A stretch of 64,000 nt of DNA from an uncultured Acetobacteraceae bacterium (lineage in GTDB: Bacteria; Pseudomonadota; Alphaproteobacteria; Acetobacterales; Acetobacteraceae). The position numbers were made by a program, and so were the translations under genes. The stretch spans positions 22,390 through 86,389 of the forward strand of contig CALMVO010000122.1 of the NCBI GenBank assembly GCA_937873205.1. The letters are read 5' to 3'. Every line of letters begins with the position of its first letter. The first letter of the stretch is position 1. Positions 11,023 to 40,510 of this stretch are shown here, one piece after another. The notes under the pieces were generated by a model. The model saw only the letters and a list, made by a program, of their open reading frames with translations, was not told where the DNA came from and did no database searches.

Positions 11023-12083
11023 ATGGATAGCTTGGCCTTGAACCACGCCGCGGCCGATACCGTCGACGCGCCCGTCGATGACGGCACGGCGGCGGCGCAG
11101 TATTTCGAGTACAGCAAGGCCGCCAACCCGGTCCGGGCCAGCCTGACGCCGCACATCCCGTTCGATGTCTTCCCGGCCTCGCTCTACGCCGACGGGCCGA
11201 CCCGCGTGGTCCCGCTCGACATCAGCGCGCAGCTGAAGTGCGCGAGCCCGGCGACCGGGCCGGATCTGTGCGCCAACTTCATCCGCATCCTGGACGGCGA
11301 GCACGTCACGCTGGAGCCGAACGCAACGTCGATGGTGTTCTACGCCATCCGCGGCTCCGGCACCGCGCAGTCGTCGGGCGAGACCCTGCGGTGGAGCGCC
11401 GGCGACTTCTTCACGACGCCCGGCTCCGGTCCGACCCGTCTCGCCGCGTCCGCCGATGCGGCGCTCTATTACGTCAACGACGCGCCGCTGCTGACCTAGA
11501 GGATGATCCGATCGCTTAGGCTCACGGATCATCCTCTAGCTTGTTGTTTTGACGAGCATCTTTATCCGATCGAACGAGTCCGTTCGATCGGATGATGCTC
11601 TATTTCGGCGCCACGGTCGATCGGGCCCGCTTTCGGCCGACCCTGTATCCGGCGGAGCGGGCGAACCGCGAGCTGGCCCTGGTGGCGAACGACCCGTCGG
11701 CGGCGGAGCGCAGTCGAGTCAGCGTCCTGCTCGCCAACAGCGAGTTCCCGCTGACGCGCACGGTGACGCACGTGCTCTGGGCGATGTACGGCATGATCGG
11801 TGCCGGCACCGCGCAGAAGCCGCACCGGCACCAGTCGATCGCGCTCGACTTCATCGTCTCGTGCGAGCCGGGCTGCTACAGCCTGCTCGGCCAGCGACTG
11901 GACGACGAGGGCAGGATCGCCGCCCCGACGCGGGTGGACTGGCATTCCGGCTGCGTCTTCATCACGCCGCCCGGCTACTGGCATGCCCACGTCAACGAGT
12001 CCGGCCGGGAGGCGCGCCTGATCCCGATCCAGGATGCGGGCCTGCAGACCTATCTGCGGACCCTGGACATCCGCTTCTCGTAG
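11023..12083 (+). pseudogene. two-cupin-domain protein gene interrupted by a palindromic element at 11499..11600
   Basis: 11023..11496 and 11601..12083 are in frame when 11497..11600 is removed (..YYVNDAPLLT|YFGATVDRARFRPTLYPAERANRE..); both halves look like one cupin family. Confidence 0.85.
11499..11600 (+). mobile_element. 102-bp MITE-like palindromic element, copy 1, flanked by TA (11497-11498 and 11601-11602)
   Basis: Two stem-loops: CTAGAGGATGATCCG..CGGATCATCCTCTAG and GAGCATC-TTT-ATCCGATCGAACG..CGTTCGATCGGATGATGCTC; near-identical to copy 3. Confidence 0.9.
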
Positions 12084-30548: not shown

Positions 30549-32888
30549 ATGCTGTCACGCAACCTCGAACAGACGCTGCACCGTGCCCTGTCGCTCGCGG
30601 GCGATCGCCGGCACGAATATGCGACGCTCGAGCATCTGCTGCTGGGATTGGTCGATGACGGAGACGCGGCGACGGTGCTGCGTGCCTGCGGCGTCGACCT
30701 CGACAAGCTGCGCGCGGATCTCACCGAGTTCCTGGACAAGGACCTGGCCGGGCTGGCGTCCGACCGCTCCAGCGAGCCGAAGCCGACCGCGGCGTTCCAG
30801 CGCGTCGTGCAGCGCGCCGCGATCCATGTGCAGTCCTCCGGCCGCGACGAGGTCACGGGCGCCAATGTCCTGGTGGCGCTGTTCTCCGAGCGCGAGAGCC
30901 ACGCGGTCTATTTCCTGCAGCTGCAGGACATGACCCGGCTCGACGCGGTCAATTTCATCAGCCACGGCATCGCCAAGGCGCCCGGACGCACCGCGTCGCG
31001 GCCGGCTACCGGCCAGGCGAGCGGCAGCGACGGTCCCGAGAACGAGCGCGAGGAGCGCGGCCGCGGCAACGCCAAGCAGCAGGACGGGCTGTCCGCCTAT
31101 TGCGTGAACCTCAACAAGAAGGCGCTCGCCGGCAAGATCGACCCGCTGATCGGCCGTGACCAGGAGATCGAGCGCACCATCCAGATCCTGTGCCGGCGCA
31201 CCAAGAACAACCCGCTCTACGTGGGCGATCCGGGCGTCGGCAAGACCGCGATCGCCGAGGGGCTGGCCAAGCGGATCGTCGAGAACGACGTGCCGGAGGT
31301 GCTGGCCAAGTCGACCATCTACGCGCTCGACATGGGAGCGCTGCTGGCCGGCACCCGCTACCGCGGCGACTTCGAGGAGCGGCTGAAGGCGGTCGTGACC
31401 GAGCTCGAGGCCAACCCCGGTGGTATCCTGTTCATCGACGAGATCCATACCGTGATCGGTGCCGGAGCCACCTCGGGCGGCGCCATGGACGCCTCGAACC
31501 TGCTGAAGCCGGCGCTGGCCCAGGGCACGCTGCGCTGCATCGGGTCCACGACCTACAAGGAGTTCCGGCAGCACTTCGAGAAGGACCGGGCGCTGGTGCG
31601 GCGGTTCCAGAAGATCGACGTCAACGAGCCGTCGGTCGAGGATGCGGTCAAGATCCTGCGCGGGCTCAAGGTCAACTACGAGAAGCACCACAAGGTGTCC
31701 TACACCGACGATGCGATCCGCGCCGCGGTCGAACTGGCCGTGAAGTACATCCACGACCGCAAGCTTCCCGACAAGGCGATCGACGTGATCGACGAGGCCG
31801 GCGCGTCGCGGATGCTCCAGCCGGAGGAGAAGCGCCGCAAGGTGGTGACGCTGCGCGACGTCGAGGAGATCGTGGCAAAGATTGCCCGCATTCCGCCAAA
31901 GAGCGTATCGGCGGACGACAAGGAGACCCTGCGTTCGCTGGAGCGCGACCTGAAGTCGATGGTATTCGGCCAGGACCGCGCCATCGAGGCGTTGGCGGCG
32001 GCGATCAAGCTGTCCCGTGCCGGGTTGCGCGAGGCCGAGAAGCCGATCGGCAACTACTTGTTCTCAGGACCGACCGGCGTCGGCAAGACCGAGGTGGCCA
32101 AGCAGCTGGCCTCGACGCTCGGCATCGAGCTGATCCGCTTCGACATGTCTGAATACATGGAGCGGCACTCGATCTCGCGGCTGATCGGGGCACCCCCGGG
32201 CTATGTCGGCTTCGACCAGGGCGGGTTGCTCACGGACAGCATCGACCAGCACCCGCACGCGGTGCTGCTGCTGGACGAGATCGAGAAGGCGCATGTCGAC
32301 CTCTACAACATCCTGCTGCAGGTGATGGACCACGGGAAGCTTACCGACCATAACGGCAAGACGGTCGATTTCAGGAACGTCATCCTGATCATGACCACGA
32401 ATGCCGGTGCGGCCGACCTCACCCGCGAGGCGATCGGCTTCGGGCGCGACAACCGCGCCGGCGAGGACGAGGAGGCGATCAAGCGCATCTTCACGCCGGA
32501 GTTTCGCAACCGGCTGGACGCCATCATCCCGTTCGCCGGCCTGACCCCGGAGATCGTCGGCCGCGTGGTGGAAAAGTTCGTCCTCCAGCTCGAGGCGCAG
32601 CTCGCCGATCGCAACGTGACCATCGAGGTGTCGTCGTCGGCCAAGGAATGGCTGGCCGAACGTGGCTACGACAGACTCTATGGCGCCCGTCCGCTGGCCC
32701 GCGTGATCCAGGAGCACATCAAGAAGCCGCTGGCAGAGGAGCTGCTGTTCGGGTCCCTGGTGCATGGCGGCGCCGTGAAGGTGACGCTGAAGGACGGGAA
32801 GCTCGCCTTCGACTTCATCGAGAACCCCGCACCGATGCCCGAGCCGGAAGAGGACGGCTCCGAGCGCGAGGCGGAGATCGCCGACTAG
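30549..32888 (+). CDS. clpA: ATP-dependent Clp protease ATP-binding subunit ClpA
   Basis: Two AAA domains ([30 protein letters not shown]) and Clp_N; stop TAG at 32886 coincides with the palindromic element. Confidence 0.96.
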
Positions 32889-32947
32889 AGGATGATCCGA
32901 TCGCTTAGGCTCACGGATCATCCTCTAACTTGTTGTTCTGACGAGCC
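32886..32947 (+). mobile_element. MITE-like palindromic element, copy 2 (truncated: first stem-loop plus linker only)
   Basis: TAGAGGATGATCCGATCGCTTAGGCTCACGGATCATCCTCTAACTTGTTGTTCTGACGAGC; identity to copy 1 ends at GACGAGC. Confidence 0.9.
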
Positions 32948-38549: not shown

Positions 38550-38786
38550 GCAGGACCTCCTTGAGGGGCAACAGCGCTTCGGTCCGTCTCCCCCGCCGCC
38601 GTGCCCGACGCGGCACACATGCGCCTGGACCAGCCGATCGACGTGCGCGTCGAAGGTGGCCGGATCGTCATCGAGCCGCTCCAGCCGACAGGGTATGACA
38701 TCGCGACGCTGATCGCCGAGATGACCGACGAGAACCGCCACGATCCGATCGACATGGGGAGGCCGGCTGGCCGCGAGGCCTGGTAG
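38550..38786 (+). pseudogene. frameshifted MazE/AbrB-type antitoxin; C-terminal 61-aa ORF (38601..38786) intact
   Basis: GNSASVRLP in one frame, then PDAAHMRLDQPIDVRVEGGRIVIEPLQPTGYDIATLIAEMTDENRHDPIDMGRPAGREAW in another; extra C in CTCCCCCGCC. Confidence 0.7.
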
Positions 38787-39106
38787 TGGCGACCGACTAC
38801 GTGCCCGATGCCGGCGACATCGTCTGGCTGCAGTTCGATCCGCAGGCCGGACATGAGCAGGCGGGGCATCGGCCCGCGGTCGTGCTCCATCCGGCCAGCT
38901 ATAACGGCCGGGCGGGAATGATCCTCCGCTGCCCGACGACGACGCGGATCAAGGGCTCTCCGTTCGAGGTGATCCTCGCCGGCACGCCGTCGAGCGCGGC
39001 GCTCGCCGACCAGGTGAAGAGCCAGGGCCGGCGGGCCCGCAAGGGTCGGATCGGCGCGACCGAGCTGGCCGAGGTGCGGGCGAAGCTGGTGGCGCTGATC
39101 GGCTAG
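38786..39106 (+). CDS. MazF/PemK-like toxin (GTG start overlapping the antitoxin stop, TAGTG)
   Basis: YVPDAGDIVWLQFDPQAGHEQAGHRPAVVLHPASYNGRAGMILRCPTT; stop TAG formed at the element edge. Confidence 0.82.
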   Translation: MATDYVPDAGDIVWLQFDPQAGHEQAGHRPAVVLHPASYNGRAGMILRCPTTTRIKGSPFEVILAGTPSSAALADQVKSQGRRARKGRIGATELAEVRAKLVALIG

Positions 39107-39206
39107 AGCATCATCCGATCGAACGGACTCGTCGATCGGATAAAGATGCTCGTCAAAACAACAAGCTAGAGGATGATCCGCGAGCCTAAGCGATCGGATC
39201 ATCCTC
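39106..39206 (-). mobile_element. MITE-like palindromic element, copy 3 (full length, opposite orientation), flanked by TA at 39104-39105 and 39207-39208
   Basis: Reverse complement matches copy 1 along the full length apart from a few differences including a 1-nt indel. Confidence 0.92.
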
Positions 39207-40510
39207 TAGGAGGCTGTCGGCGCCGAGACCGGTCTGGCGGGATCAAGCCGATCCCGCCCCATGCGGACGATCCGGGTCTCGCGGCCGAGGGCCGCCAGCC
39301 CGGCGATCAGCAGGGCGACCACCGCGATCACGCCGGCCAGCGCCCAGCGGATGTCGCTGCCGGCGAGGTGGGACAGCCAGACCTGCAGGTTGGCGTTGGG
39401 CGAGGCCAGCAGGTTGCCGAGCTGATAGACCACGCCCGGAAAGGTGCCGCGGATGGCGGCGGGCGAGATCTCGTTCAGGTAGGCCGGCACCACGCCCCAG
39501 GCGCCCTGGACGCAGAACTGGATCAGGAAGCCGCCGATCGCCAGCGGCAGCAGGTGGCTCGAGAAAGCCCAGAGCGGGATCACCGGCAGCGCCAGCAGGG
39601 CGGCCAGAGCCAGCGCCCAGCGGCGGCCGATCCGCTGGCTCGCGGCCCCGAAACACAGCCCGCCCAGGATGGCGCCGACGTTGTAGATGATGGTCATGGT
39701 GACGACGGTGGCATGGGGTAGGCGGTGGTAGCCGGCCAGGAACAGCCTCGGATAGAGGTCCTGGGAGCCGTGCGAGAAGAACAGCATCGCCGTCATCAGC
39801 ACGATCGCATAGAAGCCGAGTCCGGCATGGCGGCGGAGCACCGTGAGCGGGCCCGGCGTCGGCATGGCGGCGCGCAGCGTCCAGTCCGGGCTTTCCGGCA
39901 CGCTGCGGCGGATATACAGCACCAGCAGCGCCGGGGCGGCGCCGACGATGAACATGCCGCGCCAGCCAATCCAGGGCTCGGCGATGAACAGCAGCGAGGC
40001 GACCAGGAAGCCGGTCGGGTAGCCCGTTTGCAGGATGCCGGACACCGCGCCGCGCCAGCGCGCCGGCACGCTCTCCATCGCCAGCGAGGCGCCGACGCCC
40101 CATTCGCCGCCCATGGCGACGCCAAAGAGGGCGCGCAGGATGAGAAAGGCGGTGAAGCTCGGCGCGAAGCCGGTCAGCAGTTCGAAGGCTGCGTAGCAGA
40201 GCACGTTGGCCATCATGGTCGGGCGGCGGCCGTAGCGGTCGGCGAGCCGGCCGAAGCCCCAGGCGCCCACGACGCGGCAAGCCAGCGTCACGGTGATCGC
40301 CCAGGCGGTGGCCGCGACGGTGAGGCCGAAGGAGCGCGCCACGGTGTCGAGCACGAACACCATGATGAAGAAGTCGAATGAATCCAGCATCCAGCCGAGA
40401 TAGCAGGCCACCACCACGTGGATCGCGGCGCGCCGCTCGAACGCCGAGACCGGGCGATCCGGCATCGCCGCCGCGTGCGAGAAGCCGGACACCGTATCGC
40501 CTGCTTCCAT
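39206..40510 (-). CDS. MFS transporter
   Basis: SFDFFIMVFVLDTVARSFGL, WGFGRLADRYGRRPTMM, GGEWGVGASLAMES; stop codon formed at the element edge. Confidence 0.9.
   Translation of the reverse strand: MEAGDTVSGFSHAAAMPDRPVSAFERRAAIHVVVACYLGWMLDSFDFFIMVFVLDTVARSFGLTVAATAWAITVTLACRVVGAWGFGRLADRYGRRPTMMANVLCYAAFELLTGFAPSFTAFLILRALFGVAMGGEWGVGASLAMESVPARWRGAVSGILQTGYPTGFLVASLLFIAEPWIGWRGMFIVGAAPALLVLYIRRSVPESPDWTLRAAMPTPGPLTVLRRHAGLGFYAIVLMTAMLFFSHGSQDLYPRLFLAGYHRLPHATVVTMTIIYNVGAILGGLCFGAASQRIGRRWALALAALLALPVIPLWAFSSHLLPLAIGGFLIQFCVQGAWGVVPAYLNEISPAAIRGTFPGVVYQLGNLLASPNANLQVWLSHLAGSDIRWALAGVIAVVALLIAGLAALGRETRIVRMGRDRLDPARPVSAPTAS

Follow-up and report, generated by a model that had tools for sequence, protein, structure and literature searches.

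Repeats of the CIR and Bru-RS type have been known in alphaproteobacteria for decades. CIR elements are about 100–110 bp long, have a linker between two inverted-repeat arms, end in 5′-TA-3′, carry GANTC in the terminal loop of one arm and were reported to be strictly intergenic (PMC2229807). The Brucella repeats Bru-RS1 and Bru-RS2 are palindromic and measure 103–105 bp (PMC2267715, PMC3163539), and IS711 duplicates TA at YTAR targets (PMC3163539). In Pseudomonas syringae, the IS5-like MITEPsy1 is 100 nt long and inserts at CTAG or YTAA (PMC3189936). Here we analyse a short repeat within a 64,000-nucleotide stretch of DNA from an uncultured Acetobacteraceae bacterium (GenBank assembly GCA_937873205.1, contig CALMVO010000122.1; hereafter the window), which we place among the alphaproteobacterial CIR/Bru-RS repeats as a new lineage from Acetobacteraceae. 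The element has several features of this type, namely a length of about 100–110 bp, two arms and a linker, terminal TA and GANTC in one loop of most copies, and it shares an alphaproteobacterial host with CIR; it differs from CIR in its approximately 100 near-identical copies, its TA duplication at CTAG and its demonstrated location at stop codons and convergent gene ends. Bru-RS repeats are alike in size and palindromic arms and diverged in sequence; the comparison was made through their published description and Rfam family RF02600. MITEPsy1 has the same 100-nt non-coding format and CTAG target but has 18-nt terminal inverted repeats, a reported 4-bp duplication, few copies and another sequence. 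The IS427 group of IS5-family insertion sequences, to which we take IS711 to belong, likewise duplicates TA inside CTAG/YTAR; unlike this group, the element is non-coding and its ends do not resemble those found for resident insertion sequences.

In the window, one complete copy separates a PemK/MazF-type toxin–antitoxin gene from an MFS transporter gene on the opposite strand (Table 1). The junction reads ..CTGATCGGC-TA-[GAGCATC...CATCCTC]-TA-GGAGGCTG.., with C preceding the left TA and G following the right TA. Removing the element and one TA in silico leaves a CTAG that is the TAG stop of both the PemK/MazF-type gene (+ strand) and the MFS gene (− strand), and both proteins are unchanged between the occupied and the reconstructed empty site. 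A preliminary description of this locus had proposed an insertion into a CTAG common to two convergent TAG stops, both of them kept, that is neutral for both proteins, and the sequence and the gene ends confirm this reading. The PemK/MazF-type gene matches PF02452 over its full length (profile 2–107 of 109, E 2e-18); MFS homologues in congeners end at most about 13 residues from the same point, and the homologue in congener G002 ends in an empty C/TAG. The same description correctly held that all three window copies create or preserve TAG: the copy at 39104 keeps two, that at 32886 keeps one and that at 11497 creates one. The 957-bp open reading frame at window positions 11023–12083 appears to have been halved by the copy at 11497–11602; its C-terminal half is cupin-like, and no homologue of its first half was found in four congeners.

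Table 1 Features of the element, its window copies and the flanking genes (window coordinates).
Feature	Position	Strand	Description
Complete element	39106..39206	+	101 bp, made up of two arms (left, right) and the linker between them; GAG start, CTC end
Left TA duplicate	39104..39105	.	CTAG when read with C39103 and G39106
Right TA duplicate	39207..39208	.	CTAG when read with C39206 and G39209
Left hairpin arm	39106..39151	+	GAGCATC...GATGCTC; GACTC (GANTC) lies in the terminal loop; basis: fold, GANTC count, covariation
Linker	39152..39165	+	A-rich, single-stranded, GTCAAAACAACAAGC region
Right hairpin arm	39166..39209	+	CTAGAGGATGATCCG...CGGATCATCCTCTAG; CTAG at start and end
PemK/MazF-type toxin–antitoxin gene	38786..39106	+	106 aa; TAG stop at 39104-39106
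MFS transporter gene	39206..40510	-	434 aa; ends in TAG, read on the complement of 39206-39208
Second full copy	11497..11602	-	Target CTAT; TAG created, 957-bp ORF apparently split
Third copy	32886..32946	-	Truncated, about the right 60 bp left; TAG of ClpA-type gene 30549-32888 preserved

Both strands of the element fold into two hairpin arms separated by an A-rich linker, with energies of −58.9 and −58.0 kcal/mol. In a comparison of four genomes, both sides have changed in 19 of 36 pairs, a number reached by 0 of 500 shuffles and far above that of slid controls. Compensatory changes affect 8 of 14 pairs in the right arm, and the right-end sequence varies by species (CATCCTC, CGTGCTC, CATGCTC and CAAGCTC) with its pairing partner changing along. 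GANTC occupies position 21, in the left-arm loop, in 85 of 95 host-genome copies and is also found in G002 and G022; it has been lost from nearly all copies in the relative G004, a departure from CIR. The alignment to Rfam RF02600 (Brucella sRNA CI27) covers the two arms as well as the linker, with E=5e-4 to 4.5e-3, below the gathering score. A covariance model detects relatives in 16 of 142 alphaproteobacterial genomes (host genome counted), and about five of 11 covariance-model loci that we read exactly border a long open reading frame, a raw count from a small sample. One Acidiphilium plasmid carries a 71% relative of the element, and a phage search found no phage carrying it.

The host genome (3.73 Mb in 155 contigs) contains 104 core copies, against 0 for a reversed-pattern control. 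Most copies are full length and 94–98% identical to the window copy, and a few older ones are 88–91% identical. Like a miniature inverted-repeat transposable element (MITE), the element is short, non-coding, present in high copy number and flanked by a target-site duplication. Many contigs end within it, indicating that the element has fragmented the assembly. Sites were analysed in 78 stretches plus the window, together 1.37 Mb of the host genome picked around copies. Some copies form tandem arrays at a spacing of about 104 bp, as expected if new copies enter the border CTAG of an old copy; arrays of two or three copies sharing one TA lie in sampled stretches at L065:14720-15029, L091:5330-5536 and L099:4602-4807. 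An internally deleted copy at L082:13850-13924 keeps both TAs but lacks most of its right arm, and its left arm and linker run straight into the terminal repeat. Several insertions (flanks in L034, L044, L068, L100 and L108) have another recurrent palindromic repeat, of the GGCCAGGGCTCTGCCC type, a few bases away.

The preliminary description took any TA to be the target, whereas the copies point specifically to CTAG. Read in element orientation, the left flank has T in 89 of 92 copies and A in 90 of 92, with C before this TA in 86 of 92; the right flank has TA in 90 of 92 copies, followed by G in 88 of 92. The arrangement CTA/element/TAG is found in 71 of 82 clean units. Exceptions include TTA/TAG, CTA/TAA, ATA/TAG and CTA/TAT and occur at both element ends, and those that keep both TAs differ at one outer base only, which fits a 2-bp TA duplication inside CTAG. 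The element thereby shows the TA duplication at YTAR/CTAG that marks the IS5/IS427 group. Duplication of all 4 bp of CTAG was rejected, as the outer bases are unlike between the two ends of exceptional copies. CTAG is scarce in this DNA: base composition predicts 3752 occurrences in the sampled 1.37 Mb, where 740 were seen, a deficit of about five-fold; 410 sites outside elements were scored. Approximately 45% of all CTAGs counted in the sample lie in or at element copies or at most 200 bases from the end of a stretch. The sole further preference around CTAG is a slight surplus of a preceding T and a following A (TCTAGA), which provides no explanation for the location at stop codons.

We built a gene finder for this analysis, a 3-periodic fifth-order model trained on the host genome, ran it on reconstructed empty sites and counted each tandem array as one insertion unit. 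Of the 77 units, 48 (62%) lie exactly on a stop codon, 22 are intergenic and 7 fall inside predicted genes, mostly weak calls; among the 410 empty CTAG sites, 70 are on stops, 215 are intergenic and 125 are in genes. Occupied sites are therefore strongly enriched at stops (48/77 versus 70/410; Fisher p=3e-15, and p=1e-11 without in-gene sites), and stops account for only about 2% of all TA sites. A count independent of the gene finder gives the same picture: 62% of occupied CTAGs, against 20% of empty ones, coincide with the end of an open reading frame that spans 150 codons or more and has coding-like GC3 (p=3e-12). The enrichment persists in GC-matched and strong-neighbour strata (p=1e-5 and 8e-5). 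The stop-codon excess over random expectation that the preliminary description predicted thus holds against both empty CTAGs and TA sites at large, and we encountered neither a lack of enrichment nor empty alleles in which genes fail to end at the site. As the stretches were picked for containing copies, absolute occupancies given here and below are overestimates, with true odds lower by as much as about 2.7-fold; comparisons of site classes by odds ratio should not be affected. No report of MITE or CTAG-specific insertion sequence enrichment at stop codons was found in the open literature that we searched, outside which the original descriptions of CIR, Bru-RS and RIME lie.

The stops that carry copies are natural gene ends. 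When twenty-odd of the stop genes were scanned against Pfam, many domains proved complete to near the C terminus, and most congener homologues end at most about 12 residues from the same place. These genes include SRP54/Ffh, an Era-type GTPase, RecO, a HemN-type protein, G6PD, lumazine synthase (ribH), an ammonium transporter and an asparaginase, and the intact state of Ffh, Era, RecO, G6PD and ribH argues that they have not been truncated. An element that carried the flanking C and G with it could instead manufacture stops by truncating genes in frame, as copy 11497 in the window does create one and as a TA at codon positions 1–2 would yield TAG in any codon. Complete domains, the positions of homologue ends, including the empty C/TAG stop of the G002 MFS gene, and opposite-strand neighbours that start beyond the stop make this origin barely credible, and we reject it for most copies.

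The preliminary description tied the accumulation of copies to stop codons, but gene orientation predicts occupancy better. Among host-genome CTAGs with strong neighbours and gaps below 400 bp, convergent sites are occupied at 14 of 18 stops and 4 of 6 non-stops, compared with 12 of 37 stops and 2 of 27 non-stops between codirectional genes, 1 of 15 divergent sites and 2 of 59 sites within genes (convergent versus codirectional stops, p=0.003). CTAGs at convergent 3′ ends are what fills, and most such CTAGs happen to be stops, so that a stop codon mainly flags a CTAG that lies at a 3′ end and can be occupied without harm. The proposed role of the 5′-G end stands in part: it preserves stops by regenerating the G of CTAG, but it does not itself draw copies to them.

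A congener, G002, replicates this distribution. Here all 12 clean insertions lie on stops, five of them where two convergent genes share a CTAG. The 11 insertions at CTAG without exception occupy convergent stops, and the 7 codirectional stops are empty. Every double-stop CTAG of this genome is filled (5 of 5), and its empty CTAGs comprise 26 intergenic sites, 7 internal sites and 11 on stops. The genes at double stops are ordinary and complete, exemplified by a cobalamin adenosyltransferase facing a tetrapyrrole methylase. Insertions on stops are less dominant in G004 (4 of 7) and G022 (2 of 6), and pooling the relatives gives occupied-to-empty ratios of 17:20 at convergent sites versus 5:93 elsewhere (p=1e-7).

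We consider it reasonably probable that this distribution results from the strict CTAG target of a CIR/Bru-RS-type mobile repeat combined with purifying selection, which would leave survivors at 3′–3′ gene junctions. In the proposed sequence of events, a non-autonomous repeat would enter the TA of the palindrome CTAG and duplicate that TA. The element starts with G and ends with C, so CTAG is rebuilt at both junctions and a TAG stop read from either side survives. CTAG is avoided, rare in genes and able to serve as TAG on both strands, and many harmless targets are consequently stops. Purifying selection would mostly remove insertions from genes, promoters and operons, and the remainder would occupy, at high frequency, CTAGs between convergent genes, mostly on their stops. 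Several observations weigh against this explanation. Purging predicts that older copies should sit on stops more often than younger ones, a trend that is absent, with only 7 old copies available. In-gene CTAGs are occupied no less often (6 of 131) than intergenic CTAGs far from 3′ ends, although these in-gene cases are mostly weak calls; the empty allele compared is that of a congener; and searches of the host genome turned up no transposase whose ends match.

The missing age trend would also fit a transposition machinery that itself prefers gene 3′ ends in addition to CTAG, for example through converging transcription. Occupancy between convergent genes falls from about one-third at no more than 100 bp from the 3′ end to 6.5% beyond 100 bp, although large gaps should be harmless. 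Large gaps are low in GC, however, and probably contain missed genes or recent islands, and in the range GC>0.68 the difference narrows to 0.45 versus 0.15 on small numbers. No factor for such guidance is known in this system, and we regard it as quite improbable.

Copies might alternatively be kept for a benefit, with the back-to-back hairpins acting as a bidirectional terminator or as a protector of mRNA 3′ ends for both genes. Occupancy is far higher at convergent sites than at any others, with 5/5 double-stop CTAGs filled in G002; stable hairpins on both strands begin in or beside the stop codon; and compensatory change conserves both arms (19 pairs, 0/500 shuffles). The hairpins are not followed by a U-tract, harm alone explains the avoidance of codirectional and divergent sites, and compensatory change in a palindrome can also arise by template switching between arms. 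On balance we judge a selected benefit unlikely, and purifying selection acting on CTAG insertions remains our preferred account.

The element would be mobilized in trans by a DDE-type transposase of the IS5/IS427-like kind. Its terminal inverted repeats are imperfect (GAGCATCATCCGATCG / GAGGATGATCCGATCG). Among transposases of the host genome that match PF13358, PF01609 or PF13340, none was found whose ends agree with those of the element, and a search of this genome for an IS630 or IS5 partner with such ends came up empty. No resident insertion sequence was found to share its inverted repeats as an autonomous partner of a MITE would. A resident IS5/IS427-type insertion sequence (DUF4096/DDE_Tnp_1) does sit at C-TA-G with TA duplication, and an 835-bp insertion sequence of this type, with ends GGCTCAGGAC, occupies C-TA-G at L153:1438-2272. 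In the flanks of L098 and L073 (right flank GGCTCAGGACTCATTT), two element copies are directly abutted at their border CTAG by IS-like ends. The pairing of palindromes, each arm with a tetranucleotide beside it, also recalls REP/RAYT-type elements, in which a single-strand (HUH) transposase inserts beside CTAG without duplication, and the flank pattern alone would be compatible with such an origin. Y1_Tnp (PF01797) is nevertheless absent from the host genome, which scored 100% complete, although the same search was positive in 5 of 14 control genomes, and CTAG exceptions occur at both ends. HUH/RAYT mobilization is therefore highly improbable and was rejected for want of a Y1 transposase in the host genome.

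A broader proposal, which we hold to be unlikely, is that the CIR/Bru-RS superfamily systematically colonizes shared convergent stops as a selected bidirectional terminator or 3′-end module, with CTAG providing a safe-site rule that would explain how about 100 copies accumulate without killing genes. The distribution is sharp enough (62% on stops, and 12 of 12 in a congener) for experiments to tell selection, targeting and terminator function apart. For annotation, it serves as a warning that such elements border genes exactly and can be mistaken for truncations. The findings supply a concrete, testable rule for the habitat of a large family of bacterial repeats: a palindrome that seldom occurs within genes and doubles as a stop codon on either strand.
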